Counted from the first letter of the stretch, positions 1,270 to 14,108 are shown. The stretch is 64,000 nucleotides of DNA from Spirochaetes bacterium GWE1_32_154 (GCA_001829315.1 MIAY01000017.1:7568-71567); one strand, 5' to 3'. Notes: generated by a model not told the origin, from the sequence alone. Program-made: numbers and translations.

Positions 1270-3042
1270 CTATTTAAAATCAAGCACAATACTGCCTGTC
1301 CAGTTCTCCGGGGGATTTGCAATAAAAGAGTCGCAGCGGGAACAGTACATACCAACTATAATATCATCAGGTTTTAATTGTAAACATTCCAGAAAAAAAT
1401 CCCGTGCAAAAATAAAATTGCCGATTTTAAACATTTTTATACCCTTTTTATACAGAGCAAAAAATTTCTGATCAAATTCCTCATCAGAAACTAACGAATA
1501 CATTGTCGTTGGTTTGTCTTTTCCCTTAACCATTACGGTATCTGCTTCACGGAAAACAAAATCGTCCATGATGCACCCCTGATAAATGTCTTCTGAAACG
1601 AGAATTCCTGTATTATAATGTTTATTAAGTGATTCAAGCCTTGCGGCAAGATTAACTGTATCACCAATAGCCGTATAATCAAAATTATCACTTGACCCGA
1701 TATTCCCGATAATTGCCTTTCCGATATGAATACCGACACCGATTCGATAACCGTTTTCCGGAAAATTAATAGTTTTTTGTGCGTTTCTTACATAAGCAAA
1801 CATTTCCAATGCTGCAAGACAGGCTCTTTTTTCATTATCAATATAACTCTCAGGAGCACCAAACATTGCAAAAACAGCATCACCAATAAATTTATTGATT
1901 TCCCCGCCATATTTTTTGATACACTTGGTTAACCCGGTGAAATGTTCATTGAGAAATGCAACGAGCTCTTCAGGATTATTATTATGTTCAATATATGAAA
2001 AATCTCTGATATGTGAAAAGATAACAGCAACTTCTCTTTTTTCTCCCGTCATAAGACTTTTAATATCAGTCTTTTTTAGTAAATCATCAATTACTTTAAC
2101 CGGTAGAAAATGGGAAAATAACAGTTTTAATTTATCTGCAGTATACATATTATTTTTATACTCAATAATAAAACAAAATATTTTGAATAAAAAAGGTAAA
2201 ACACTGTTGAAAACGGCCAACTCTTCACTATCCTGCATGGTATGACTGTAACAGATACCGGATTTAAAATTCTTCCATTGAGGAAAGTAGTATTGATTAC
2301 GCATTGTATCAGAATACGTTTTTGTGATTGTATCAATTTTGATAATTTCATTATGTATATTAATTTCAGGTGAAAGACAAAAGGTTTTAACTACATGAGT
2401 ATGAAATGATTCAAAAACACCATCAATCGTGTCTTTATTTTTTACAATTGAATAATACTGAACAGAATTTCCTGTGTAATTTGCAAACACCAATGAATCT
2501 ATTGAAAAATATTCAAATAATACAACACCAATATTCTCAAGTGTTAATTGATAATCAACAATTCCCGTTACTGCCATAACCAGTTTTTCATATAATTTTA
2601 TTCCAATTTGTTTTCTATGTAATAATGTTATGACTGATTGTAAAATTTCAGAATCATCTAACAGAGTATCATTTACTGCTTCTTTTTTTACCCCGGACTC
2701 TAAAAGTTTACATGATACCTGAACTAAAACCGCGAAAAATTTCTTTGAATATACAACTATATGATCTACACCTTTGATTGCAACAATCTCACTACTATTA
2801 GAAATAACTGCGATAACCGGGGTTCCATATTGTTTTTTAACTATTTCAATCACAAGAGAAGATTCAATATCATGTATATTTCCATCGAGTATAATCAAAT
2901 CCGCTTTTACACTATTAAGAGAACATAGAAAATCAATACCGCTGGTATATAGCACTGTTTCAATCTGAAGTGTAAGAAAAGATGAACGGATTAATGAATA
3001 TGTTTCAACTGAGTTCATTATACAAACGATTTTCTTTGTCAA
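1270..3042 (-). CDS. Class III nucleotide cyclase, C2-like (lacks first metal Asp)
   Basis: About 590 residues: degenerate receiver-like N terminus, GAF-like middle, then a class III cyclase homology domain and a short helical tail. Numbering from the TTG at 3042, the first metal Asp of the F-x-D-I-R motif is His344 (VIFSHIRDF). The second metal site is kept (Asp388, NKFIGDAVF), as are the transition-state pair Asn464/Arg468 (GDTVNLAARLE) and the phosphate-binding Lys (VKGKDK). Lys in NKFIGD and Thr in YTAIGD suggest adenine specificity. The TTG at 3042 is preferred because GGGGAG lies 7 bases before it; an upstream TTG at 3084 is possible. Last gene of the chemosensory operon and a paralogue of the gene before it. 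I infer it supplies the C2-type half of a heterodimer. Confidence 0.88.
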   Translation of the reverse strand: MTKKIVCIMNSVETYSLIRSSFLTLQIETVLYTSGIDFLCSLNSVKADLIILDGNIHDIESSLVIEIVKKQYGTPVIAVISNSSEIVAIKGVDHIVVYSKKFFAVLVQVSCKLLESGVKKEAVNDTLLDDSEILQSVITLLHRKQIGIKLYEKLVMAVTGIVDYQLTLENIGVVLFEYFSIDSLVFANYTGNSVQYYSIVKNKDTIDGVFESFHTHVVKTFCLSPEINIHNEIIKIDTITKTYSDTMRNQYYFPQWKNFKSGICYSHTMQDSEELAVFNSVLPFLFKIFCFIIEYKNNMYTADKLKLLFSHFLPVKVIDDLLKKTDIKSLMTGEKREVAVIFSHIRDFSYIEHNNNPEELVAFLNEHFTGLTKCIKKYGGEINKFIGDAVFAMFGAPESYIDNEKRACLAALEMFAYVRNAQKTINFPENGYRIGVGIHIGKAIIGNIGSSDNFDYTAIGDTVNLAARLESLNKHYNTGILVSEDIYQGCIMDDFVFREADTVMVKGKDKPTTMYSLVSDEEFDQKFFALYKKGIKMFKIGNFIFARDFFLECLQLKPDDIIVGMYCSRCDSFIANPPENWTGSIVLDFK

Positions 3043-3062
3043 ACCTCTTCTCCCCGTACAGT

Positions 3063-4700
3063 TTATATTGTAAAAACCTGACAATGATGATTCTCTATTT
3101 CAATTTCACCGGCAACTTTATAGTCAATATTCGCATCTAATTGCTTTCTCACCTCATCAGAAAATAAAATAGTCGTTTTTAATTGCTTCGTAGCACCCTC
3201 AAGTTCTTCAGCAATCCCGACGACATTTCCTATAACCGTATATGCTTTTTTTTCATTTGAACCGATATTCCCGACTATAGCCTCGCCACAATGTATTCCA
3301 ATACCATTATTGACTTTATTATCAGGCAGATATAATCCGGTAATATCAACCTCAGACAGTTTTGAAACCATTTTAATGGCTGCGTTAATCGCCCGTGTAG
3401 CTATTGAAGTAGAAGCATTTGTACCGGTATGTTCAGAATCGATAAAAACAGCAACAATTGCATCCCCGATAAATTTATCAATAGTTCCATTTTCCTCTCG
3501 AATGCAACTAACCATAATTTCAAAGTAATTATTGAGAAATTTAACAACATTTTCAGCTGTATTTTTCTCGGTAATTGTAGTAAATGACCTGATATCTGAA
3601 AATAATATGCAAACTTCCTTTCGTTCTGCATTGCTTTCATTTTCCTCTGCATCAAACATCCTGTCAATTATTGTCTCCGGTATAAACTTGGAAAAGACAT
3701 TTTTAATATTCAATTTTTTTTCGTAAGCCTGATAATATTGCATCCCGTTACAAATCACTTCACCGGTTTTAAATAATAACTCGCTGATAGTTCCTATCAT
3801 TATATCTGAAGTGAAAAAATTGTTAATTGAACTGCCACAATGAATTGTTCCTATTACATTTCCGATAGAATCAAATAATGGAGAATAAAAGTATGAACTT
3901 ACTGCATTAATATCACTCGCATCATTTTCTCCATCAGATCGTTTAAAAAAGTTTATCAAATCATCGTTTGTTTTAATCGAAACGAATGTTGATGTATTAT
4001 AAAAAAAACGGTTTACTTGTGTTGAATCAATATGTTTGAAATTAGTAAAATGACTATGAAATGAGACATTAAAGAAATCATTATACGAACTTTTGTTGAT
4101 AGAACGCGACATCATTGAATATTCAATAGTTTTTCCGTCAATATCCAGAAATAAAGTAATACAATCCGGATTACAAAACTGCTGTATTTCAAGCAAAACA
4201 AATTTAATGCATGTGGACATACTGTCAATATTTTCCAGTGACTTTGCAAGAAAACTGCTTTTCAACACATTACTATTTGCTGAGTTTTTTGTTACAACCT
4301 TCTTAAAAACCGTTTGGATATCCGATTGTACAGGTGAGAAAACGCCATTAATATCCGGTAATTTCTCAGAAGGAATCAAAGGTTGGTTCTGATATTGTTT
4401 AAATGTCTTCCACGCATCGGTATAACAAATAATATCATGTGAACACAATGATTCTGATCGTAATCTGTCAAATGAGGCTTTAACATCGGTAATAATATAA
4501 ACCGGAATATCGAGTGTTGATTCTAAATAATGCGACAAGGTAAAACAATCAGGATTTCTGATTGTTCTATCAATACAAATCACCTGTGGGATAGTATTAA
4601 TCTCAATCGGATTACACGTATTAATTGGTATGACAACACATTCCTCACATTCAAAAAGTGAATCAGAATCTGTTATAAAAAAAACCATTATTTTATCCAT
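3063..4700 (-). CDS. Class III nucleotide cyclase, C1-like (lacks Asn/Arg pair)
   Basis: 545 residues with the same layout as its downstream neighbour: degenerate receiver, GAF-like domain (SYFYSPLFDSIGNVIGTIH) and C-terminal class III cyclase domain. Both metal-binding Asp residues are present, Asp369 (ILFSDIRSF) and Asp413 (KFIGDAIVAVF), 44 residues apart as in canonical cyclases. The transition-state Asn and Arg are replaced by Gly495 and Glu499 (IGNVVGIAEELEG), and the VKG-type phosphate-binding Lys segment is missing. Alone it should not be catalytically competent; it matches the C1 half of animal adenylyl cyclases. It overlaps cheA by 8 bp (shared ATGGATAA), implying translational coupling. 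Confidence 0.9.
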   Translation of the reverse strand: MDKIMVFFITDSDSLFECEECVVIPINTCNPIEINTIPQVICIDRTIRNPDCFTLSHYLESTLDIPVYIITDVKASFDRLRSESLCSHDIICYTDAWKTFKQYQNQPLIPSEKLPDINGVFSPVQSDIQTVFKKVVTKNSANSNVLKSSFLAKSLENIDSMSTCIKFVLLEIQQFCNPDCITLFLDIDGKTIEYSMMSRSINKSSYNDFFNVSFHSHFTNFKHIDSTQVNRFFYNTSTFVSIKTNDDLINFFKRSDGENDASDINAVSSYFYSPLFDSIGNVIGTIHCGSSINNFFTSDIMIGTISELLFKTGEVICNGMQYYQAYEKKLNIKNVFSKFIPETIIDRMFDAEENESNAERKEVCILFSDIRSFTTITEKNTAENVVKFLNNYFEIMVSCIREENGTIDKFIGDAIVAVFIDSEHTGTNASTSIATRAINAAIKMVSKLSEVDITGLYLPDNKVNNGIGIHCGEAIVGNIGSNEKKAYTVIGNVVGIAEELEGATKQLKTTILFSDEVRKQLDANIDYKVAGEIEIENHHCQVFTI

Positions 4701-6792
4701 TACTTATACCCAGAAGTTTTTTTATATCACCAAGGAAAATATCTCTATCAAAGTTAGATTTATAATGTATCGAATTTGCTCCGGCTGCAATATAATCATC
4801 AAGCCGCTGTGTTTTCTTTGAAGAAGATAATACTATTACCGGTGTTTTTTCATAACCGGGAATTTTTCTGCAATTTTCAATAAAGGTTAAACCATCCATT
4901 CGCGGCATTGCAGTATCTGTAATTATCAGGTGAAATGTGGATTCTTTTAATTTTTCCAGAGCATCAATACCATCAGTTGCCGTATCTGTATTGATTTTAC
5001 TTCTTTTTAACATGATGCTTTCAATTTCTCTATTGACCGGACTGTCATCCACTATTAAAACCGATTTATACTGTATCGCATCAGTCGAATATCGTGTTTT
5101 ATAATCAATATTTTTTATCTCTTTAAGCATACTGACAATCTTCGGGATATAAATGATGGTAACAATCCGGAATTCCTCATCAAAAACAACCCCCTGAATA
5201 CCTTTTATCGACTGAATATTTTTAGGTAGCGGTTTATACACGGTCGATGTATGATATAAAATTTCATCAACGATTATACCGGTTTTTTCATTATACATCT
5301 CGGTTATAAGGATAAATAATGTATCTGAATCTGAAGGTGTTTTCCCTTTTAAAATCCCGGTTAACGGATAAATCGGAATTATATCATCACGTAATTTAAC
5401 AGCTTGTTTTGTCACAAGATCCATAACTTCATTTTTATCAATAATGATAATTTCAGAAACAAAAATTGATGGTATAAAAAAAGGTGATTTTCCGGCAGTT
5501 ACAAAATAGCCATATAATGTCGTTAGCGATTTTGGAACGGTAAATGTAACCTTTACACCGTTATTAGCCCGGTTCTCAAGTAATATCCGTCCTTTAATTC
5601 TATCAATATGCTTTTCTGTTGTTGTTAAACCGAATCCTCTTCCGGTATACACCTCCGCTGATGTGATACCGGGTATAAATAATAATCGATTGAGTTTTTT
5701 TATTCCCGATTGTAACAAAACCTGCTTTTTATGAGGAAACAACGATATTGCGCGCATGACAATTTTCTTATAATCTACACCACACCCGTCATCTTCTATA
5801 GATATATTAATGTTTCCGTTATCTGTAGTCGCAACAACCTTAATCGTACCTTCAGGATTTTTCCCCTTACTAAGCCGTTCTTCAGGTGATTCAATACCAT
5901 GTTCGATACAATTTGCAATACTATTTAAAACAGGTTGTTTAATGTTTTCAAGAATGAGCGTATCAAGTATAATTCTATTATGGACAATCGATACAGAAAT
6001 CTTTTTATTAAACTTTGCGGACAATAATTCTGCTGTATTTTTTATATCGTCAGTCAAAAGGATTATTGGAACCATTCTAAGTGACAAAATACTATCCTGA
6101 AGTTGATAACTGCTTCTATCGAATTTTAAAATACTGTTTTTAACATCAGATTCTAAAAGTTTTAGTTTTTTATTTTCATTTTTAATGTCATTAACATCTA
6201 TATCAGGACTGGTAAGTATAGCATCAACCGTTCTTCCATACGAATAGATTTTTTCTATTTTCTGTTTGAGCTGATATTGCGTAACAATTAATTCATTTAC
6301 TTTTGTCATAATTGTATCAACATTTTTCAGGTTCATTGTTATAGTTCGTGATGGATCAATGCCGCTTTCCAAAACATCCTGAGGCTGAACTAATTTCTTC
6401 TTCACTATATCAATAATAAATGCCTCATCAATATCGGTGTCTAAACCGGAAGCCGTTTTATTGAGAACTACAAGTAATTTTTTGATTGAAACCGTATCAG
6501 GTTTGGTATGTTCAGCAGTTATAATTTCTTTTATGTACACTAATACAATATTAATGGTATCAATAATACGTTCATTTATTCCACTTTTATTTATTTCAAT
6601 ATTTTTCAGGATATTGATAATTGATTCAGTCAAAGTATACACGAGGGTTAATCCGGTTATTGATGATACACTGCGAATAGAATCAAAAAGATTTATGATC
6701 TGTTTACTGTCTATTTCATCATTACCTAATACAACCCGGATTTTTTGAGAATAATCTGCAATTTCTTCTTTAAACCTTGTATTATCAGACAT
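4693..6792 (-). CDS. cheA: CheA-type kinase fused to a receiver domain, no P1 histidine
   Basis: 699-residue hybrid: N-terminal helical Hpt-like domain, dimerisation helices (~160-260), HATPase_c with N box (NSIANCIEHGIE), G1 (IEDDGCGVD) and G2 (TGRGFGLT), a CheW-like P5 domain (~410-550), then an intact receiver (IVDDSP, phospho-Asp in TDTAMPRMDG, SSS, Lys in HYKSN). In the Hpt the position of the phosphorylated His is Arg40 (LFDSIRSVSS where H-T/S-x-K-G is expected), and no other His sits in such a context. The kinase may phosphorylate another Hpt protein or act mainly as array scaffold. It lies 2 bp after cheR. Confidence 0.92.
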   Translation of the reverse strand: MSDNTRFKEEIADYSQKIRVVLGNDEIDSKQIINLFDSIRSVSSITGLTLVYTLTESIINILKNIEINKSGINERIIDTINIVLVYIKEIITAEHTKPDTVSIKKLLVVLNKTASGLDTDIDEAFIIDIVKKKLVQPQDVLESGIDPSRTITMNLKNVDTIMTKVNELIVTQYQLKQKIEKIYSYGRTVDAILTSPDIDVNDIKNENKKLKLLESDVKNSILKFDRSSYQLQDSILSLRMVPIILLTDDIKNTAELLSAKFNKKISVSIVHNRIILDTLILENIKQPVLNSIANCIEHGIESPEERLSKGKNPEGTIKVVATTDNGNINISIEDDGCGVDYKKIVMRAISLFPHKKQVLLQSGIKKLNRLLFIPGITSAEVYTGRGFGLTTTEKHIDRIKGRILLENRANNGVKVTFTVPKSLTTLYGYFVTAGKSPFFIPSIFVSEIIIIDKNEVMDLVTKQAVKLRDDIIPIYPLTGILKGKTPSDSDTLFILITEMYNEKTGIIVDEILYHTSTVYKPLPKNIQSIKGIQGVVFDEEFRIVTIIYIPKIVSMLKEIKNIDYKTRYSTDAIQYKSVLIVDDSPVNREIESIMLKRSKINTDTATDGIDALEKLKESTFHLIITDTAMPRMDGLTFIENCRKIPGYEKTPVIVLSSSKKTQRLDDYIAAGANSIHYKSNFDRDIFLGDIKKLLGISNG

Positions 6793-6794
6793 AG

Positions 6795-7610
6795 TTAATT
6801 CCCCGCTACTTTTTTAAAGAAATAACAATTTTCAATATGCATCAGTTCTAATTCGGGATGTTCAACAAAAGCTGTATTTGAACTGGATAATATAATATAA
6901 CCACCGGGTTTTAAAACCTTTACAGCTTTGTCGATTATTTTATTTCGAGTTTCCAGATCCATATATATTAAGACATTACAAATTAATATAATATCCGGTT
7001 TTCCCAAAAGTATCTGTTCATAATCATCAAGTATAAGATTCAGCGGTTTCACTGAAATCATTTCTATTATTTCACGATTGATCGTTACAATAGAATTATT
7101 TTGACTGCTATTTTCTTTTATCAAAGGATGAAATATAGTCCCGTCATTTCGAAACGAATTTTTCCCGTAACTTCCCTTAAGTAAGGTATTAAGCGTTCGA
7201 ACATCAATGTCTGATGCAATAACCGGTTTATATCCCTTGCACGAAATCCCCCATGTATTCTTTATAAGTAATGCAAGTGAGATAGCTTCCTCACCAGAAG
7301 ATGTTGCAGCACTCCATATAATCGGCGGGTATTGATGATTCTCTTTATAGTCAGGTAACAAAACATTTTTTAATAGCTTAAAGTATTTTTCTTCTCTAAA
7401 AAAATAGGTTTCGTTTATTGTAAATATCTCAAGTAAATCATAAAACAAATCAGGATTCCGGTTTAATTGTTGTATATATTCATCAACACTCCATTTTTCC
7501 AGTAACCTGTCAATAAAGCGCATAATCATTCTTTCGTTTGATTCTGCAGCTTTTAAGCCGGTTTTTACAGTGATATAATCAAAAATATTTAAGTATTTCT
7601 TATTTTCCAT
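6795..7610 (-). CDS. cheR: CheR chemoreceptor methyltransferase
   Basis: 271 residues. Methylates glutamates of the chemoreceptor with SAM. The family hallmark NETYFFREEKYF starts the catalytic domain, followed by the SAM loop IWSAATSSGEEAISLA, the acidic IASDID, and ICNVLIYMD. Full length for CheR (about 270-290). It starts inside the last codons of cheB (11-bp overlap), so translation is coupled. With CheB it gives the array a complete methylation-based adaptation pair even though the CheA phosphohistidine is missing. Confidence 0.95.
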   Translation of the reverse strand: MENKKYLNIFDYITVKTGLKAAESNERMIMRFIDRLLEKWSVDEYIQQLNRNPDLFYDLLEIFTINETYFFREEKYFKLLKNVLLPDYKENHQYPPIIWSAATSSGEEAISLALLIKNTWGISCKGYKPVIASDIDVRTLNTLLKGSYGKNSFRNDGTIFHPLIKENSSQNNSIVTINREIIEMISVKPLNLILDDYEQILLGKPDIILICNVLIYMDLETRNKIIDKAVKVLKPGGYIILSSSNTAFVEHPELELMHIENCYFFKKVAGN

Positions 7611-8628
7611 AGTTATTTCTCATTTTTACGAGATTTACCAGATATTCTGCGATTTTATCAATTGGTAACACAATTGAAGCGCCACCTGATTCAATTGCAA
7701 CTTTCGGCATACCAAAAACAGTGGATGTTTCTTTATCCTGCACAATCGTATACCCGCCATTATGAAGAATATCAACACAACCCAAAGCCCCGTCCTGCCC
7801 CATTCCGGTCAGTAAAATGCCGACAAGATTTTTTTTGTATGTTGATGATGCTGTTTTAAATAATCTATCAATCGATGGCTTTTGAAAATTAACCTTTTCA
7901 CCATCTTCGTAATAAAACACTTTATTTTTAATAACAAGATGTTTTCCCTGGACTGCAATAATAACTTCTCCGGGGTTCGGTTTATCATTAGTAACAGCCA
8001 ATCGCACTGACAATTTACTTTCACGATTCAGATATTTTGCAAGTCCTTCCTCATGACCGTCTTCAAGATGCTGGACAATTGATATGGGTACCGGAAAATC
8101 AGACGGCAGATTATCCAGAATTATTTTTAACGCCTTAGGACCGCCGGTTGATGAACCGATTACGATATGTTCAATGCAATCTGACTGACTGGTTTTATTC
8201 GCACCAATAACAGATTGATATTTGGTTTTTAATTCAGTTTGTAATATTCGTGAATCCGGTGGTGCTTTTATAGATCGAAGTATACTCTTCCGGTATTCAT
8301 CATCATTAATTGTATCAATATCAGGATATTCAATAACCTTGCCATAATTCCTTTTAGTCAATTCAGCAACTTCTTTTTCATTGAATTTACCGGTAAAACA
8401 AACCAATGGTTTTGACTCTACCTTGGCTAGTTCCATAAAAAAATAATCATCATCAACTTTAATGGTATTATCACCGAAAATAATGAGTTCTGCTTTTTTC
8501 TCGTTTGCAATTTTAAGTGCATCCCGCCAGTTAGCAGTCAGGAGTAATACTTCATCGTGAGCATCAGTAAAAATTTCTTTCAGAATTGAACGCATCATAG
8601 CTGAGTTTAGTACAATTATTACTCTCAT
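7600..8628 (-). CDS. cheB: CheB methylesterase with degenerate receiver
   Basis: 342 residues. The C-terminal methylesterase domain keeps the Ser-His-Asp triad: Ser in IGSSTGGPKAL, His in VQHLEDGHEEG, Asp in LLTGMGQDGA. The N-terminal receiver-like domain has lost the acidic pair (VIIVLNSAMMR instead of V-D-D-S), and its phosphoacceptor region is atypical (LIIFGDNTI). Phosphorylation control is therefore doubtful, which fits the missing phosphohistidine in the operon's CheA. Follows the CheW-like gene by 3 bp. Confidence 0.93.
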   Translation of the reverse strand: MRVIIVLNSAMMRSILKEIFTDAHDEVLLLTANWRDALKIANEKKAELIIFGDNTIKVDDDYFFMELAKVESKPLVCFTGKFNEKEVAELTKRNYGKVIEYPDIDTINDDEYRKSILRSIKAPPDSRILQTELKTKYQSVIGANKTSQSDCIEHIVIGSSTGGPKALKIILDNLPSDFPVPISIVQHLEDGHEEGLAKYLNRESKLSVRLAVTNDKPNPGEVIIAVQGKHLVIKNKVFYYEDGEKVNFQKPSIDRLFKTASSTYKKNLVGILLTGMGQDGALGCVDILHNGGYTIVQDKETSTVFGMPKVAIESGGASIVLPIDKIAEYLVNLVKMRNNYGK

Positions 8629-8631
8629 TCG

Positions 8632-9132
8632 TTACTCCACTTTAGTATTAATTGCAAAGGAAAGTACCTTTTCCAGATCGATCAGATAAGAAATTGTATG
8701 AGAACACAACGAACATGCTATTATTCCTTTTTTTTCCAATGCCTCTGATAGTACATGGGGTAATAACTTCAATTCCCGTAGTGCAATACTCTTAATTTCA
8801 GATGATGATGGTATTAAACAGGCGATTATATCTGATTTGAGATATTCTTTAATTGTCCGGTTATATGCACTCACATCTGATACAAAACAAAGTTTAACAG
8901 AACCTTTCGTTACAGCATGAAAATTGCTGTGAATAAAAGCATTCAAATCAAATAATACTACTTCCTGCTCTCCAAATTGTATGATTTTCTGAAAATAAAT
9001 ATTCTGTAACCCCGAATCTTTCACTTCATTAAGCATAATGCTTGAATAAAATTGAGATTTATTGATATAGATTTCTATTTTTTCATAATGAATATTGAGA
9101 AAATCACAACAGCCATTATTACTCAAGGTCAT
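8632..9132 (-). CDS. Probable degenerate CheW-like protein
   Basis: 166 residues, no strong family match by eye. A CheW-like beta-barrel core is suggested by short alternating strands and VVLFDLNAFIHSNF, which resembles the I/V-V-D-L segment of CheW. The gene overlaps cheW by 14 bp and is 3 bp from cheB, so it belongs to the chemosensory operon. It could be a second, diverged coupling protein (compare FrzB in the Frz system) or an adaptor to the cyclases. Assignment is inference from position and size. Confidence 0.5.
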   Translation of the reverse strand: MTLSNNGCCDFLNIHYEKIEIYINKSQFYSSIMLNEVKDSGLQNIYFQKIIQFGEQEVVLFDLNAFIHSNFHAVTKGSVKLCFVSDVSAYNRTIKEYLKSDIIACLIPSSSEIKSIALRELKLLPHVLSEALEKKGIIACSLCSHTISYLIDLEKVLSFAINTKVE

Positions 9133-9613
9133 CTTGTATCCGTATAACTATTTTTTGAACATCAACAACAGGTATTTCATCATTTTCATGAGTTATTGAA
9201 CTATGAAAATATGCATCCTTATCATTCTGATCTTTAATGAAATGTATATCATTACTATTAATAAACACTATTTTTAAAATATCACTTATTATAAATGACA
9301 TTTTATCAACACTGTTTCTTAAAATCACAAACTTCTTCGCTTCAAGCATCTGATTGCTGAATAAAATCTGAAGATCAACCACACTGTACGGCTCTCCCTG
9401 ACGATTAATTAAACCGCGTATATAATGAGGCGTAAAAGGAAGATAGTGTATCTCATTTTCAATGATAATTTCCTGCACTATCAATTCGGGTAATGCAAAT
9501 TTCTTTTCACCAATTAAAACGATAACAAACTTCTCCCCGGTTTTCACATTGACATCTTCCGGGGGGGATGACTGATTACTTTTTAAACTGTCTATAATTT
9601 CACTATTTTCCAT
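9119..9613 (-). CDS. cheW: CheW coupling protein
   Basis: 164 residues. CheW links chemoreceptors to CheA. After a ~30-residue leader the CheW fold is clear: EKFVIVLIGEKKFALPELIV, then the hallmark PFTPHYIRGLINRQGEPYSV (R-G-x-x-N-x-R-G) and VVDLQILF, ending with IPVVDVQKIV. Follows the MCP gene by 11 bp. Confidence 0.93.
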   Translation of the reverse strand: MENSEIIDSLKSNQSSPPEDVNVKTGEKFVIVLIGEKKFALPELIVQEIIIENEIHYLPFTPHYIRGLINRQGEPYSVVDLQILFSNQMLEAKKFVILRNSVDKMSFIISDILKIVFINSNDIHFIKDQNDKDAYFHSSITHENDEIPVVDVQKIVIRIQDDLE

Positions 9614-9624
9614 TATAATTACTC

Positions 9625-11607
9625 TTATCCTTCTAATTTGTACTTGTTTACTATAGATTCCAAAGTTTCCGAAACAACATCCAAATCATCTGATGCATTA
9701 GTCGTTTCCCGGGTTGCAATCGCAATATTATCAACACCTTCTGAGATTTGTTTTATTGCAATGAGAATCTGTTCAAATGTACCAACCTGCTGATTGATTG
9801 ACTTTGCAATCTGTTTTGTTGAATCGGTTGAAATTTCCGAACTGGATAAAATATCAGCAAATAGATTATTAATTTCTTTTGTCAGTCCATTTCCTTCTTT
9901 AATACGCTCAGTTCCCTCTTCAGAAGTTAATATCAACCGGTCTGATGATTTCTGGATTTCTGTAATTCTGTTTTTTATTTCATTGGTTGAAGTAACTGTT
10001 GAATCTGCTAATCGTCTGATTTCAGTAGCAACAATCTGGAAATTCTTCCCGGCTTCCCCTGCAGCTGATGCTTCAAGTTCTGCATTGAACGCAATAATTT
10101 TAGTCTGATCGGCAATGCTATTAATGATATTCACAATATCCCAGATATTATCAATTCGTTCACTTAAGAATTTTATTCCATCAATAGTTGTTTTATTTGA
10201 AAGATTAATTTCTTCCATTTTACTTAAATTATCCTGTACCTTTGAAAAACCATTTTTAACGGTTACCTGAGTATTTGTTGTAATTGTTGTAATCTCACTA
10301 ATCTTTTTCTCAATCGATTTTGATAAACTATCAACATCTTCCATTGTACTGACAATTTCCTTAACAGCAGCAGCCTGCTGACTTGCTGTTGAAGAGGTTT
10401 CCTGTGATGAAGATGATAGTGCCTGAATTAATTCAACAACTTTATTGGTTATCTTTTTTAAATTGAATAAAACTTCTTTATAACTGGATAAAAAACTATT
10501 TAAAGAAGTACCCATATCATCAATCTCATCCCGGAATGAATGCACTGAAACAGATATATACTTTTGAGTAAAATCACCTTTTTCAGCAATATCAAAAATG
10601 TGTCCGAACCGTGCTATTTTCGATGATATAATTCTACTGATAAATGAAGAAATGACAATTAAAATGAATGAGGATAATACAATTCCTATGACAATTATTA
10701 AACGCATAATAACTAAAGGACTGAGTAATTCAGCTTGAGACATTCCGGTTACTATAATCCAGTCTAATTCTTTTATATACGAATAATATGCAATATATTT
10801 TCGTTCTTTCGTATCATTAATGCTTTTTTTTACGAACTCAATCCGACCTGATTTCGTCCGGCAAATGGTTTCTATATAGTCATTTTCAATAAGATTTGCA
10901 CCTTCTTCTTCCTGATGAATTATTGCATTACCTTCAACATCAAGTACAAATGTAAACCCGGTTTTACCATTTTTGGTAATCAGTAAATCATCCCGGAAAT
11001 CAGCTTTATTTAAAAGGGATGTAAATTCAGATTTATATGATGAACACCATATTATTAAATCCCATGGTTTAAAATAGGTTATATATCCGGCTTTCGTTCT
11101 CGCCTGTGTTTCATTTACATTTTTCCAGTCATATTCTATGTACCCTTCCTGTGAAGGTGTTTTAATTATAGCATCTACTTTTTGCCAAAATGGCTGTGCA
11201 GAAATATTAACACCTTCAGAAAGCGGATGAATAAATAACAATCCGTCTTTTTTTACTCCCGCGATATAACCGGTGTCCCCTACTTTCATAAAACCGGGAT
11301 ACAACAGCATATTTCGCGCTTCTTTAATCGCTTCTGCTTCGGTTAATATACCTTTTTGATATTGATTATAATAATAATCAGCAATTTTTCCGCCTTTATC
11401 AGAAAATGTCCGTAAATAATTTTTTACCGAGACATTGAGAATTCCTTCCATATTTCGATTAATTACATCTGATAAGGCTTGTAAATTTGTTTCCTGAATA
11501 GAAACTACTTTAATTTTCACATATTGGTATATTAATATTCCAATTACAAGAAATATTATAAAAGTTGCAGTTCCAAAGCTGAAAAACATCTTGTTTCCAA
11601 TTTTCAT
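9625..11607 (-). CDS. Methyl-accepting chemoreceptor with tandem Cache domains
   Basis: 660 residues. TM helix 1 (~9-30); a large periplasmic region with two Cache_2-like modules (FMKVGDTGYIAGVKKDGLLF and KTGFTFVLDVEGNAIIH); TM helix 2 (~295-320); HAMP; and a cytoplasmic signalling coil with the conserved hairpin tip DQTKIIAFNAELEASAAGE. Cache receptors usually bind small carboxylates or amino acids, but no ligand can be read here. It is the only receptor in the operon and is presumably the dedicated input to CheA/CheW and the two downstream cyclases. GGAG precedes the ATG. Confidence 0.93.
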   Translation of the reverse strand: MKIGNKMFFSFGTATFIIFLVIGILIYQYVKIKVVSIQETNLQALSDVINRNMEGILNVSVKNYLRTFSDKGGKIADYYYNQYQKGILTEAEAIKEARNMLLYPGFMKVGDTGYIAGVKKDGLLFIHPLSEGVNISAQPFWQKVDAIIKTPSQEGYIEYDWKNVNETQARTKAGYITYFKPWDLIIWCSSYKSEFTSLLNKADFRDDLLITKNGKTGFTFVLDVEGNAIIHQEEEGANLIENDYIETICRTKSGRIEFVKKSINDTKERKYIAYYSYIKELDWIIVTGMSQAELLSPLVIMRLIIVIGIVLSSFILIVISSFISRIISSKIARFGHIFDIAEKGDFTQKYISVSVHSFRDEIDDMGTSLNSFLSSYKEVLFNLKKITNKVVELIQALSSSSQETSSTASQQAAAVKEIVSTMEDVDSLSKSIEKKISEITTITTNTQVTVKNGFSKVQDNLSKMEEINLSNKTTIDGIKFLSERIDNIWDIVNIINSIADQTKIIAFNAELEASAAGEAGKNFQIVATEIRRLADSTVTSTNEIKNRITEIQKSSDRLILTSEEGTERIKEGNGLTKEINNLFADILSSSEISTDSTKQIAKSINQQVGTFEQILIAIKQISEGVDNIAIATRETTNASDDLDVVSETLESIVNKYKLEG

Positions 11608-11711: not shown

Positions 11712-14108
11712 TTAACCTCGTGCAAACTCTTCAAATTGGGGCAAAAGGCTTGAATAACCAACATCTCTTTCAAAATTAATTTCTATACGAAGTGCCCGTA
11801 ACCCTTTAATCCCCTGAAGATCTTCAAGCAGTAAATCTTCAATTGTATCTTCTATTAAATACTTTTTTGCTATTAAAAACTCGAGGTATTGTCTATATTC
11901 AACGGCTTCAGAATTCTGGGTGTAGACAATTGCAATTTTACCAATTTGAGTCAACCGTTCTTCAGTATCTTTAATCACTGCTTTATCGATACGTTTTTTC
12001 ATGATTTCATACCGGATATTATACGCACCTTCAACAGCAAGTTTATTCTCATCGGTTTTAAACATTAATGTTAACGGCATATCCTGAACTACGACAAGAT
12101 GGGTTGTATCAAGTTTAATTTTTTGTTTTTCTTTTATTTTATCAGTTAATAACGCTATGTTTGATAATATTATCAATTGCCAGAGTCTTAGATTCTTAAG
12201 ATACAGTTTATTAAATTCACTATCACCAATAAGTGATGAACCGATATAAATATTCTGATCAATTCCATCAGTTGTGTTTTTATCAAAATAATGAGGGTAC
12301 ATTTTTTGCGCTTCCGGTTGAACTGAATCAATATAATTTGATATGGTTTTATTTAACAGATCAACGCTGTCATCAAAATCTTTTCTTTTGTTATACAAAG
12401 TTCCAATATTTGAATCAATTACATTGTAATAGTGGGCAATTTTTTCATTAACGGTTTCATTAAGATTTTTTAAATTTTTAAAACACGTTTCAATTTCATT
12501 ATGTAAAAAACCGATTATTCCAAGCTCATTCCCGCTTGACAGGTTTTCCTTAATTTCAGATAAATAGTTGTCGACACGAAATAGATATTCATCGAGAATA
12601 GGAAGTTTTCTTACCGTTTGAACCGATTCAAGAATATCCTTTATAAGTTGAAGATGTTCTTCAAGATCTGACTGAATCGCTGTATTTCGCTGCACTGATG
12701 AACCACGAATATCTGTTGCGCAATAAAGCGGATACACATCTTCAAAAACAATTTTTTCAACATCACTTTGTTTGTTTTCATTATGTTTATCAATCATTTT
12801 CATTGCAGCTTCACGAAATTTCCATTCAATAGACGGATGAATTGAAGTATAATTGGTTCTGATTATAGATTGAACCTCATTATCAAAATCATCCAATGCT
12901 CGTTCAATTACGAGTGAAAAAAGCGGATATAATTCCTCTAATTTCATTAAATTAATCGGATCAAAAGCAAAGGCTTCAGATGAAGACAGAAAAAACTCAC
13001 CGATTACATTTTCACCTGTTGTTAACGGTCGAATAAGAATTGATTTTATATCATTTTTCAATAATTCTGTTTCAAAATTATTCTGTGTTTTTCCTTTAAT
13101 ATATCCCGGAAAATCATTAATTATTAAAGTTTTCTTTTCAATATAAGCCTGTTGAAAAACCGAATTATGGAAATCATCTGTATCAATATGTTTTGACTCT
13201 CTGTAAATACATTCGACATCACTGCATTTATGAGAAACAGAATTTAACATAAGAATTTTAGAATTATGAAATGCAGCGATACCAACAAATACAGTTTGAT
13301 TTTTTAAAAGACTTCTAATATTATCCTGTATGTTAACAATGATTTGACGGTCAAGAATTGAATTTTTAAACATCAATTCTTTTTTTATTTCAGATATGAT
13401 CTGACTATCAGTAATATCAGTTTTATTTATTAACAATAAACCGCTTAATTTAAAATTGTCCGGAGCTATAATTTTTGTGATTACATTTAAATCATTAAGA
13501 TTATCTTTAATTTCCTGTAATTGCAGATCTGTTAACTTCGGTATAGTTTTAGCCGGTATGATTTTTACGAATCGATCATCAAATTTTGATTTGAAAAACT
13601 TTATAAAATTGTTTTTCTTATGCTGGATTTTCGTAATGATTTCATTATCATATTGTATATCAAACCCGTAAAATTCATTTAATATTTTTATATAAATATA
13701 CAAAGTTGTTTTACAATTTATGTCATTATTTTGATTATTACTGAAACTTATTCCATCATTTTCAATTTCTTTAACATACGTTAAAAAACCATCAGAATAA
13801 TAAAACGGGAGTTTTTTCAAATCAAAAGTATGCATTGTAAAAATGGTGGAATTATTGTCTCCCGGAGGAATAATAATTGAAAAAAGAATCGAAAAGAAAT
13901 CCTTAAACTTATCTGAATGAGGATTTTCATTTATTCTGCGCATACTATCAGGGGTACTGCAAAAAGTGCTAATGTGTTTTCTATAGATTTCACCATATAA
14001 AGGATGGTTTTCAAAACTTTTCCAATAGTCAAGCAGATACTGAATTGTAAACTCAGATTCAAAATTGGTAATGGTATTGGTGCAAGATGTAATGTTTATT
14101 GAAAGCAT
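11712..14108 (-). CDS. Large GAF-domain protein upstream of the chemosensory operon
   Basis: 798 residues, no membrane segment. A GAF domain lies at about 235-405 (FVGIAAFHNSKILMLNSV, SILIRPLTTGENVIGEFFLSS). The following segment contains VYPLYCATDIRGSSVQRN, superficially like the first strand of class III cyclases (F-x-D-I-R-G-F-T), though later metal and Asn/Arg motifs were not found. The C-terminal half is helical. Related long GAF proteins occur in Bacteroidota and spirochetes. It is 104 bp upstream of the MCP gene on the same strand and could be the operon's first gene or a separate unit. Confidence 0.7.
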   Translation of the reverse strand: MLSINITSCTNTITNFESEFTIQYLLDYWKSFENHPLYGEIYRKHISTFCSTPDSMRRINENPHSDKFKDFFSILFSIIIPPGDNNSTIFTMHTFDLKKLPFYYSDGFLTYVKEIENDGISFSNNQNNDINCKTTLYIYIKILNEFYGFDIQYDNEIITKIQHKKNNFIKFFKSKFDDRFVKIIPAKTIPKLTDLQLQEIKDNLNDLNVITKIIAPDNFKLSGLLLINKTDITDSQIISEIKKELMFKNSILDRQIIVNIQDNIRSLLKNQTVFVGIAAFHNSKILMLNSVSHKCSDVECIYRESKHIDTDDFHNSVFQQAYIEKKTLIINDFPGYIKGKTQNNFETELLKNDIKSILIRPLTTGENVIGEFFLSSSEAFAFDPINLMKLEELYPLFSLVIERALDDFDNEVQSIIRTNYTSIHPSIEWKFREAAMKMIDKHNENKQSDVEKIVFEDVYPLYCATDIRGSSVQRNTAIQSDLEEHLQLIKDILESVQTVRKLPILDEYLFRVDNYLSEIKENLSSGNELGIIGFLHNEIETCFKNLKNLNETVNEKIAHYYNVIDSNIGTLYNKRKDFDDSVDLLNKTISNYIDSVQPEAQKMYPHYFDKNTTDGIDQNIYIGSSLIGDSEFNKLYLKNLRLWQLIILSNIALLTDKIKEKQKIKLDTTHLVVVQDMPLTLMFKTDENKLAVEGAYNIRYEIMKKRIDKAVIKDTEERLTQIGKIAIVYTQNSEAVEYRQYLEFLIAKKYLIEDTIEDLLLEDLQGIKGLRALRIEINFERDVGYSSLLPQFEEFARG

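Follow-up and report, generated by a model that had tools for sequence, protein, structure and literature searches.

At the end of a chemosensory operon in Spirochaetes bacterium GWE1_32_154, two adjacent genes encode class III nucleotidyl cyclase paralogues, here called A and B, with reciprocal losses in their active sites. We consider it likely that A and B form an obligate heterodimeric class IIIb cyclase that arose by gene duplication and serves as the output of a non-canonical array that may work without phosphotransfer. From the gene content, the residue pattern and its conservation, and the phylogeny, we infer a heterodimer that would be active only as a pair, would make cAMP and would be under the control of the array. 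Below, 'the window' denotes the whole stretch of 64,000 nucleotides that was analysed, and positions are counted from its first letter.

Catalytic residues of cyclases A and B and their conservation

Both genes lie on the minus strand. Cyclase A (3063..4700, 545 aa) is built of a receiver-like fold (residues ~1-105), a GAF-like domain (~150-297), a coiled coil and a class III cyclase domain (~359-545), and cyclase B (1270..3042, 590 aa) of a pseudo-receiver, a GAF-like region, a class III cyclase domain and a TPR-like tail. Read from its first TTG, the B frame spans 1270-3084 (604 aa); the TTG at 3042, which gives the 590-aa protein and has GGGGAGAAGAGG in front of it, is most likely the true start. 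The original prediction described overlapping paralogues of a 'split' enzyme. The frames do overlap when both are read from their first starts, but the preferred start of B leaves a gap of 20 bases between the genes in the window; and as A and B are two full-length paralogues, 'duplicated and subfunctionalised' is the better wording.

Both proteins match PF00211 (Pfam) above the cut-off (A at 2.1e-20, B at 3.5e-26) and have the class III fold, which places them among the class III nucleotidyl cyclases. An AlphaFold2 model of A reaches pLDDT >90 in most blocks of the catalytic domain and is weaker at the N-terminus. Foldseek searches with this model returned CyaC (1wc1) and CyaB (3r5g), and alignments to solved cyclases (for B, to CyaB 3r5g) are concordant with the residue assignments given below. 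Searches of the PDB with A led to the C1 region of tmAC and to sGC-alpha regions, and those with B to the C2 regions of tmAC5/tmAC8 and of sAC and also, weakly, to AC9 C1.

Class III active sites lie at the dimer interface, the metal-binding Asp coming from one subunit and the base-recognising residues, Asn, Arg and Lys from the other (PMC8815786). In A, both metal Asp are present, Asp369 (3594..3596) and Asp413 (3462..3464), together with K409; Gly495 to Glu499 (3204..3218) stand in place of the catalytic Asn and Arg, and Glu536 (3093..3095) is found where the Lys of the VKG motif is expected. In B (590-aa numbering), His344 (2011..2013) takes the place of the first metal Asp, and the catalytic Asn464 to Arg468 (1639..1653) and the VKG Lys506 (1525..1527) are kept, as are K384, D388 and T457; all of these codons are on the minus strand. 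Our residue-level check agrees with the original prediction on the two Asp, Gly495/Glu499 and the missing VKG Lys of A and on His344, Asn464/Arg468 and the Lys of B. By sequence, the proposed analogy with the C1/C2 halves of mammalian tmAC also holds, A being the C1-like, metal-donating subunit and B the C2-like subunit that donates base and transition-state residues. Neither chain contains all seven catalytic residues: an A:A dimer is without Asn, Arg and Lys and a B:B dimer without the first metal Asp, so that a complete site exists only in A:B. Since each protein has lost exactly the residues kept by the other, the two should work only as a pair.

In the proposed composite site, A would supply both metal Asp (D369 and D413), and B would supply K384 and T457 for base recognition, N464 and R468 for the transition state and K506 for phosphate binding, which together would make up a single complete active site of the ATP type. 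The base-recognising Lys and Thr, present in 6/6 B proteins, are of class IIIb type and point to ATP as the substrate. The mirror site, in which His344 and Asp388 of B would face Gly495, Glu499 and Glu536 of A, is predicted to be dead and may serve as a regulatory pocket; that the His is invariant in B suggests a job for the dead site. Weak activity of a B homodimer is possible, since one metal Asp is left in B and its His could be a metal ligand.

An initial search of 40 relatives yielded a full-length orthologue pair in one genome (G029). A phylum survey of 393 Spirochaetota genomes gave six A genes, that of the window and five others (E 6.6e-234 to 2.6e-174, next match 1e-107), and when repeated with a six-row profile it returned the same six, again with a wide score gap. 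A B gene lies directly after each A gene, at distances from a 22 bp overlap to a 10 bp gap between first-start ORFs. The labels of the search tool assign the six genomes to six families (f1, f21, f27, f32, f38 and f50), and the proteins of the other five pairs are 26-44% (A) and 31-44% (B) identical to those of the window. Open frames are of normal length in 5/6 A and 6/6 B, the exception being the A of G048, which has 383 aa and is without the N-terminal region. A scan of named genomes with A gave a single genuine orthologue, from the MAG Spirochaetes bacterium GWB1_36_13, on a contig matching that of G029; two further matches were rejected as general cyclases rather than orthologues. Family- and class-level searches gave no pairs beyond the six, which are all that are known in this analysis, and a search of plasmids gave distant cyclases only.

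Across the six pairs, A keeps the metal Asp at 12/12 positions and Asn, Arg and VKG Lys at 0/18, and B keeps the first metal Asp in 0/6 (it is always His), the second in 6/6 and Asn, Arg and Lys at 18/18. All seven residues of the composite site are present throughout (42/42 across six divergent pairs) while the mirror site decays. The replacements in A differ between genomes (Asn to G/R/S/S/E/E, Arg to E/E/E/A/G/L), as expected where selection has been released. Complementary losses of the tmAC/sGC type, leaving one complete composite site, had been predicted for the window and recur in every orthologous pair. The original prediction was to be abandoned if related pairs retained full active sites; the survey of adjacent homologues that it called for gave the opposite result.

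The same division is seen more broadly at positions of the two half-sites that are conserved in the single enzymes described below. A keeps 137/150 of the metal half and 55/126 of the transition-state half, and B keeps 106/150 and 106/126, respectively. At the level of motifs, DIRxFT of the metal motif persists in A, from which NLxxR and VKG have been lost; in B the reverse holds, and its metal half is additionally altered at T, M and D. A Fisher test on the fully conserved columns of each half is not significant alone (p=0.056); it is the catalytic residues and the clade pattern that carry the argument.

The chemosensory operon and its phosphotransfer residues

The pair stands at the end of an operon that comprises a methyl-accepting chemoreceptor with a dCache sensor domain (9625..11607), CheW (9119..9613), a conserved 166-aa protein without a Pfam match (8632..9132), a CheB methylesterase (7600..8628), a CheR methyltransferase (6795..7610) and a CheA-like protein (4693..6792), all on the minus strand. 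Homologues of the 166-aa protein occupy the equivalent place between CheW and CheB in most, not all, of the related operons examined. With MCP, CheW, CheA, CheR and CheB together, the operon encodes a chemosensory system; it shares this set, and likely a non-flagellar output, with chemosensory systems of alternative cellular function, from whose CheA the CheA of the pair operons differs in being without the phospho-His. Directly upstream of the chemoreceptor, on the same strand, lies a gene for a 798-aa protein with a weak GAF match (11712-14108).

The CheA-like protein comprises a P1-like bundle without the phospho-His, dimerisation, ATP-binding and CheW-like domains and an intact C-terminal receiver. 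Asp37 (codon 6682-6684, minus strand) occupies the phospho-His position, and the five readable CheA of pair operons have D/Q/T/D/E there (5/5), the sixth, of G065, being cut by a contig end. The Pfam Hpt domain is detected in 0/5 of these pair-type CheA, as against 3/3 of the tested CheA with a kinase domain from single-cyclase operons. An AlphaFold2 model of the window CheA still shows the N-terminal helical bundle and matches structures of CheA P3-P5 and of arrays. In the ATP site, the N-box and glycine motifs are for the most part preserved, with the second glycine motif altered in G244 and G314, and the pair-type CheA form one clade (100/99). A 2023 survey of CheA attributed missing Hpt domains to contig ends or to Hpt being encoded by its own gene in the operon (PMC10782961); neither accounts for the pair-type CheA.

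The receivers are degenerate to varying degrees. CheB retains its catalytic motifs in the window and its esterase motifs throughout the pair operons, whereas its receiver, degenerate in the window, has lost the acidic pair in 5/5 and the phospho-Asp in 3/5, G244 and G314 keeping an Asp at that position. Of the response-regulator pocket (phospho-Asp, acidic residue, Thr/Ser and Lys), parts are missing from both A and B of the window; all four residues are found in the receiver of the single cyclase of G015. The B receivers have an Asp at the phospho-position in 6/6.

In the mechanism that we propose, the duplicated lineage would have lost the phospho-acceptor His of CheA and parts of the phosphorylation pockets of the CheB and cyclase receivers, and the array would probably act on the cyclase through contact and conformation rather than through phosphotransfer; this phosphate-free coupling is the most speculative part of the scheme. 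We favour direct contact because key residues of the His-Asp relay are gone while MCP, CheW, CheR, the CheB esterase and the ATP-binding part of CheA persist. Phosphate-free control is also the weakest part of our reading, given what is left of a relay: the CheA ATP site and receiver (the latter intact in 6/6 pair-type operons), the CheB Asp of two genomes, the Asp of all B receivers and 12 Hpt domains elsewhere in the window genome, two of them in frames of 115-120 aa. Phosphotransfer may accordingly persist, with another CheA or a free Hpt protein phosphorylating the CheA receiver or a remaining receiver Asp and so controlling A:B. Separate Hpt proteins that serve CheA are known (PMC10782961), and we regard such a relay as a real possibility, though we lean against it. 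The operon contains no Hpt gene, the receivers of A and B are without the other pocket residues, and in a separate group of single-cyclase operons (G246 and G369) CheA has lost its Hpt and ATPase domains, yet the canonical cyclase is kept. The CheA-like proteins without Hpt and ATPase domains in single-cyclase operons (L087:10931-12619 and L086:7122-8669) are in themselves another sign that these arrays may work without a kinase.

Single-cyclase relatives and the origin of the pair

As a control, 27 other cyclase ORFs were recovered from the window genome. Both metal Asp are present in all of them and Asn and Arg in nearly all (one alignment ends at a contig end), which, together with the recurrence of the losses in 6/6 orthologous pairs, puts the pattern beyond chance. 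The genome (G000) is rich in such enzymes, with 29 class III cyclase domains in 4.0 Mb, including convergent neighbouring pairs on contigs C21 and C43.

In 17 examined operons of the same type, a single cyclase occupies the equivalent place directly after CheA. Both Asp, Asn and Arg are kept in 17/17, one enzyme having Met for the VKG Lys, and ten of the 17 have a complete receiver pocket. Such a receiver-GAF-cyclase (e.g. that of G015, L040:6981-8855) has operon, position, domain order and cyclase clade in common with the pair, and differs from it in being one gene with a full active site, often with an intact receiver, next to a CheA with the Hpt His. The C-terminal TPR-like tail is kept in B and in the single enzymes and lost from A. 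In a cyclase tree computed without the catalytic columns, A and B form separate clades (100/99 and 99/96, respectively), as expected of subunits whose pattern was fixed over evolution. Both clades fall inside the group that holds the single enzymes, their internal branching largely matches, and sisterhood of A and B is not rejected (p-AU 0.43). Most simply, a receiver-GAF-cyclase gene would have been duplicated once in tandem and the copies would then have undergone reciprocal loss; the pair would have come from the canonical copy that stands alone at the operon end in many Spirochaetota. Tandem duplication alone does not yield the complementary pattern, since a tandem duplicate in G003 (L154) consists of two canonical enzymes.

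The same data bear on whether the pair is a cyclase at all. A and B could both be pseudocyclases, the pair serving the array as an output that senses nucleotides or acts as a scaffold; each alone is without an essential catalytic residue, and with degenerate receivers and a degenerate CheA phospho-His the operon evidently tolerates loss of catalysis elsewhere. We consider this unlikely, because a dead pair should lose both sites, and here the composite site is kept at every position while only the mirror site decays. It is similarly improbable that A and B function independently, with B (using the His as a metal ligand) or A active alone, or with each partnering other cyclases of the cell. In B the C2-type residues are all present, as is the second metal Asp, its His is invariant in six proteins, as if kept for a reason, and the 27 other cyclases of the genome could be partners. 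Against independence, the genes are neighbours, the A and B trees match and the decay is reciprocal, all of which points to the adjacent protein as the partner; A is short of three catalytic residues at once (Asn, Arg and Lys), and substitution of the metal Asp is known to abolish class III cyclase activity. The probability that the pattern is a sequencing error of the window genome, or reflects pseudogene decay confined to this strain, is negligible, for although some substitutions (Gly495 and Glu499 of A) resemble random drift, the same reciprocal pattern in all six pairs, from six genomes and six families with nearly all frames of normal length, rules out strain-specific decay.

Known heterodimeric cyclases and a second, membrane-bound pair

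A review describes heterodimeric class III cyclases notably from higher eukaryotes (PMC8815786), and the transition from a bacterial homodimer to the C1/C2 pseudo-heterodimer has been placed in an early eukaryotic cell (PMC9552081). A literature search that reached few subscription journals gave no description of a bacterial heterodimeric class III cyclase. Heterodimers are known in eukaryotes, and the chemosensory context is the more unusual part of the present system. As in mammalian tmAC C1a/C2a and sGC alpha/beta, in which one subunit has both metal Asp and the other Asn, Arg and Lys, giving one catalytic and one degenerate site (PMC8815786), A:B would have a single working site. Unlike these enzymes, it is bacterial and encoded by two separate adjacent genes in a chemosensory operon, and it has soluble receiver-GAF N-termini, class IIIb base residues (Lys/Thr) and a His at the dead metal position. 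The homodimeric CyaC (1wc1), CyaB (3r5g) and Rv1625c have the catalytic fold and residue spacing in common with A:B and differ in that two identical composite sites are formed from one kind of subunit. The chytrid heterodimeric rhodopsin cyclases RGC1/2 with NeoR have separately encoded subunits that are active only together, as we suppose for A and B; these, however, are fungal membrane rhodopsins (PMC7655827).

If A:B works as proposed, the transition to a pseudo-heterodimer, by duplication and complementary loss of half-sites, can be followed in present-day bacteria whose relatives have one cyclase gene in the equivalent operon. Simple proteins would then allow tests of how asymmetric cyclases originated and of what a dead pseudo-site is used for. 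An array that may signal without phosphate would also bear on the capabilities of the MCP-CheW-CheA core complex.

A second system may represent a half-way stage. The window genome carries another tandem cyclase pair on contig C28 (L155:4202-6853), with ~six predicted helices, and its counterparts in related genomes (L151:2517-5185 and L152:1587-4246) are likewise membrane-anchored cyclases. In the window genome the second protein is complete, and Arg and Lys are missing from the first. The pairs of G002 and G003 are altered in both members: Asn, Arg and Lys are gone from the first, and in the other the second metal Asp is replaced by Ser, which mammalian C2 also has at this position. G001 has a single canonical enzyme. 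The membrane pair seems to record a separate and younger round of duplication and complementary loss. The combined reading, in which an array without His-Asp phosphotransfer switches an obligate A:B cyclase by contact and complementary membrane pairs evolved a second time with a C2-like Asp to Ser change, we put forward tentatively, at somewhat less than even confidence. Complementarity of the same kind as in A and B is found in two of the three genomes with the second pair, within the window's own family, and a search of 296 genomes placed the degenerate first member in these three only.
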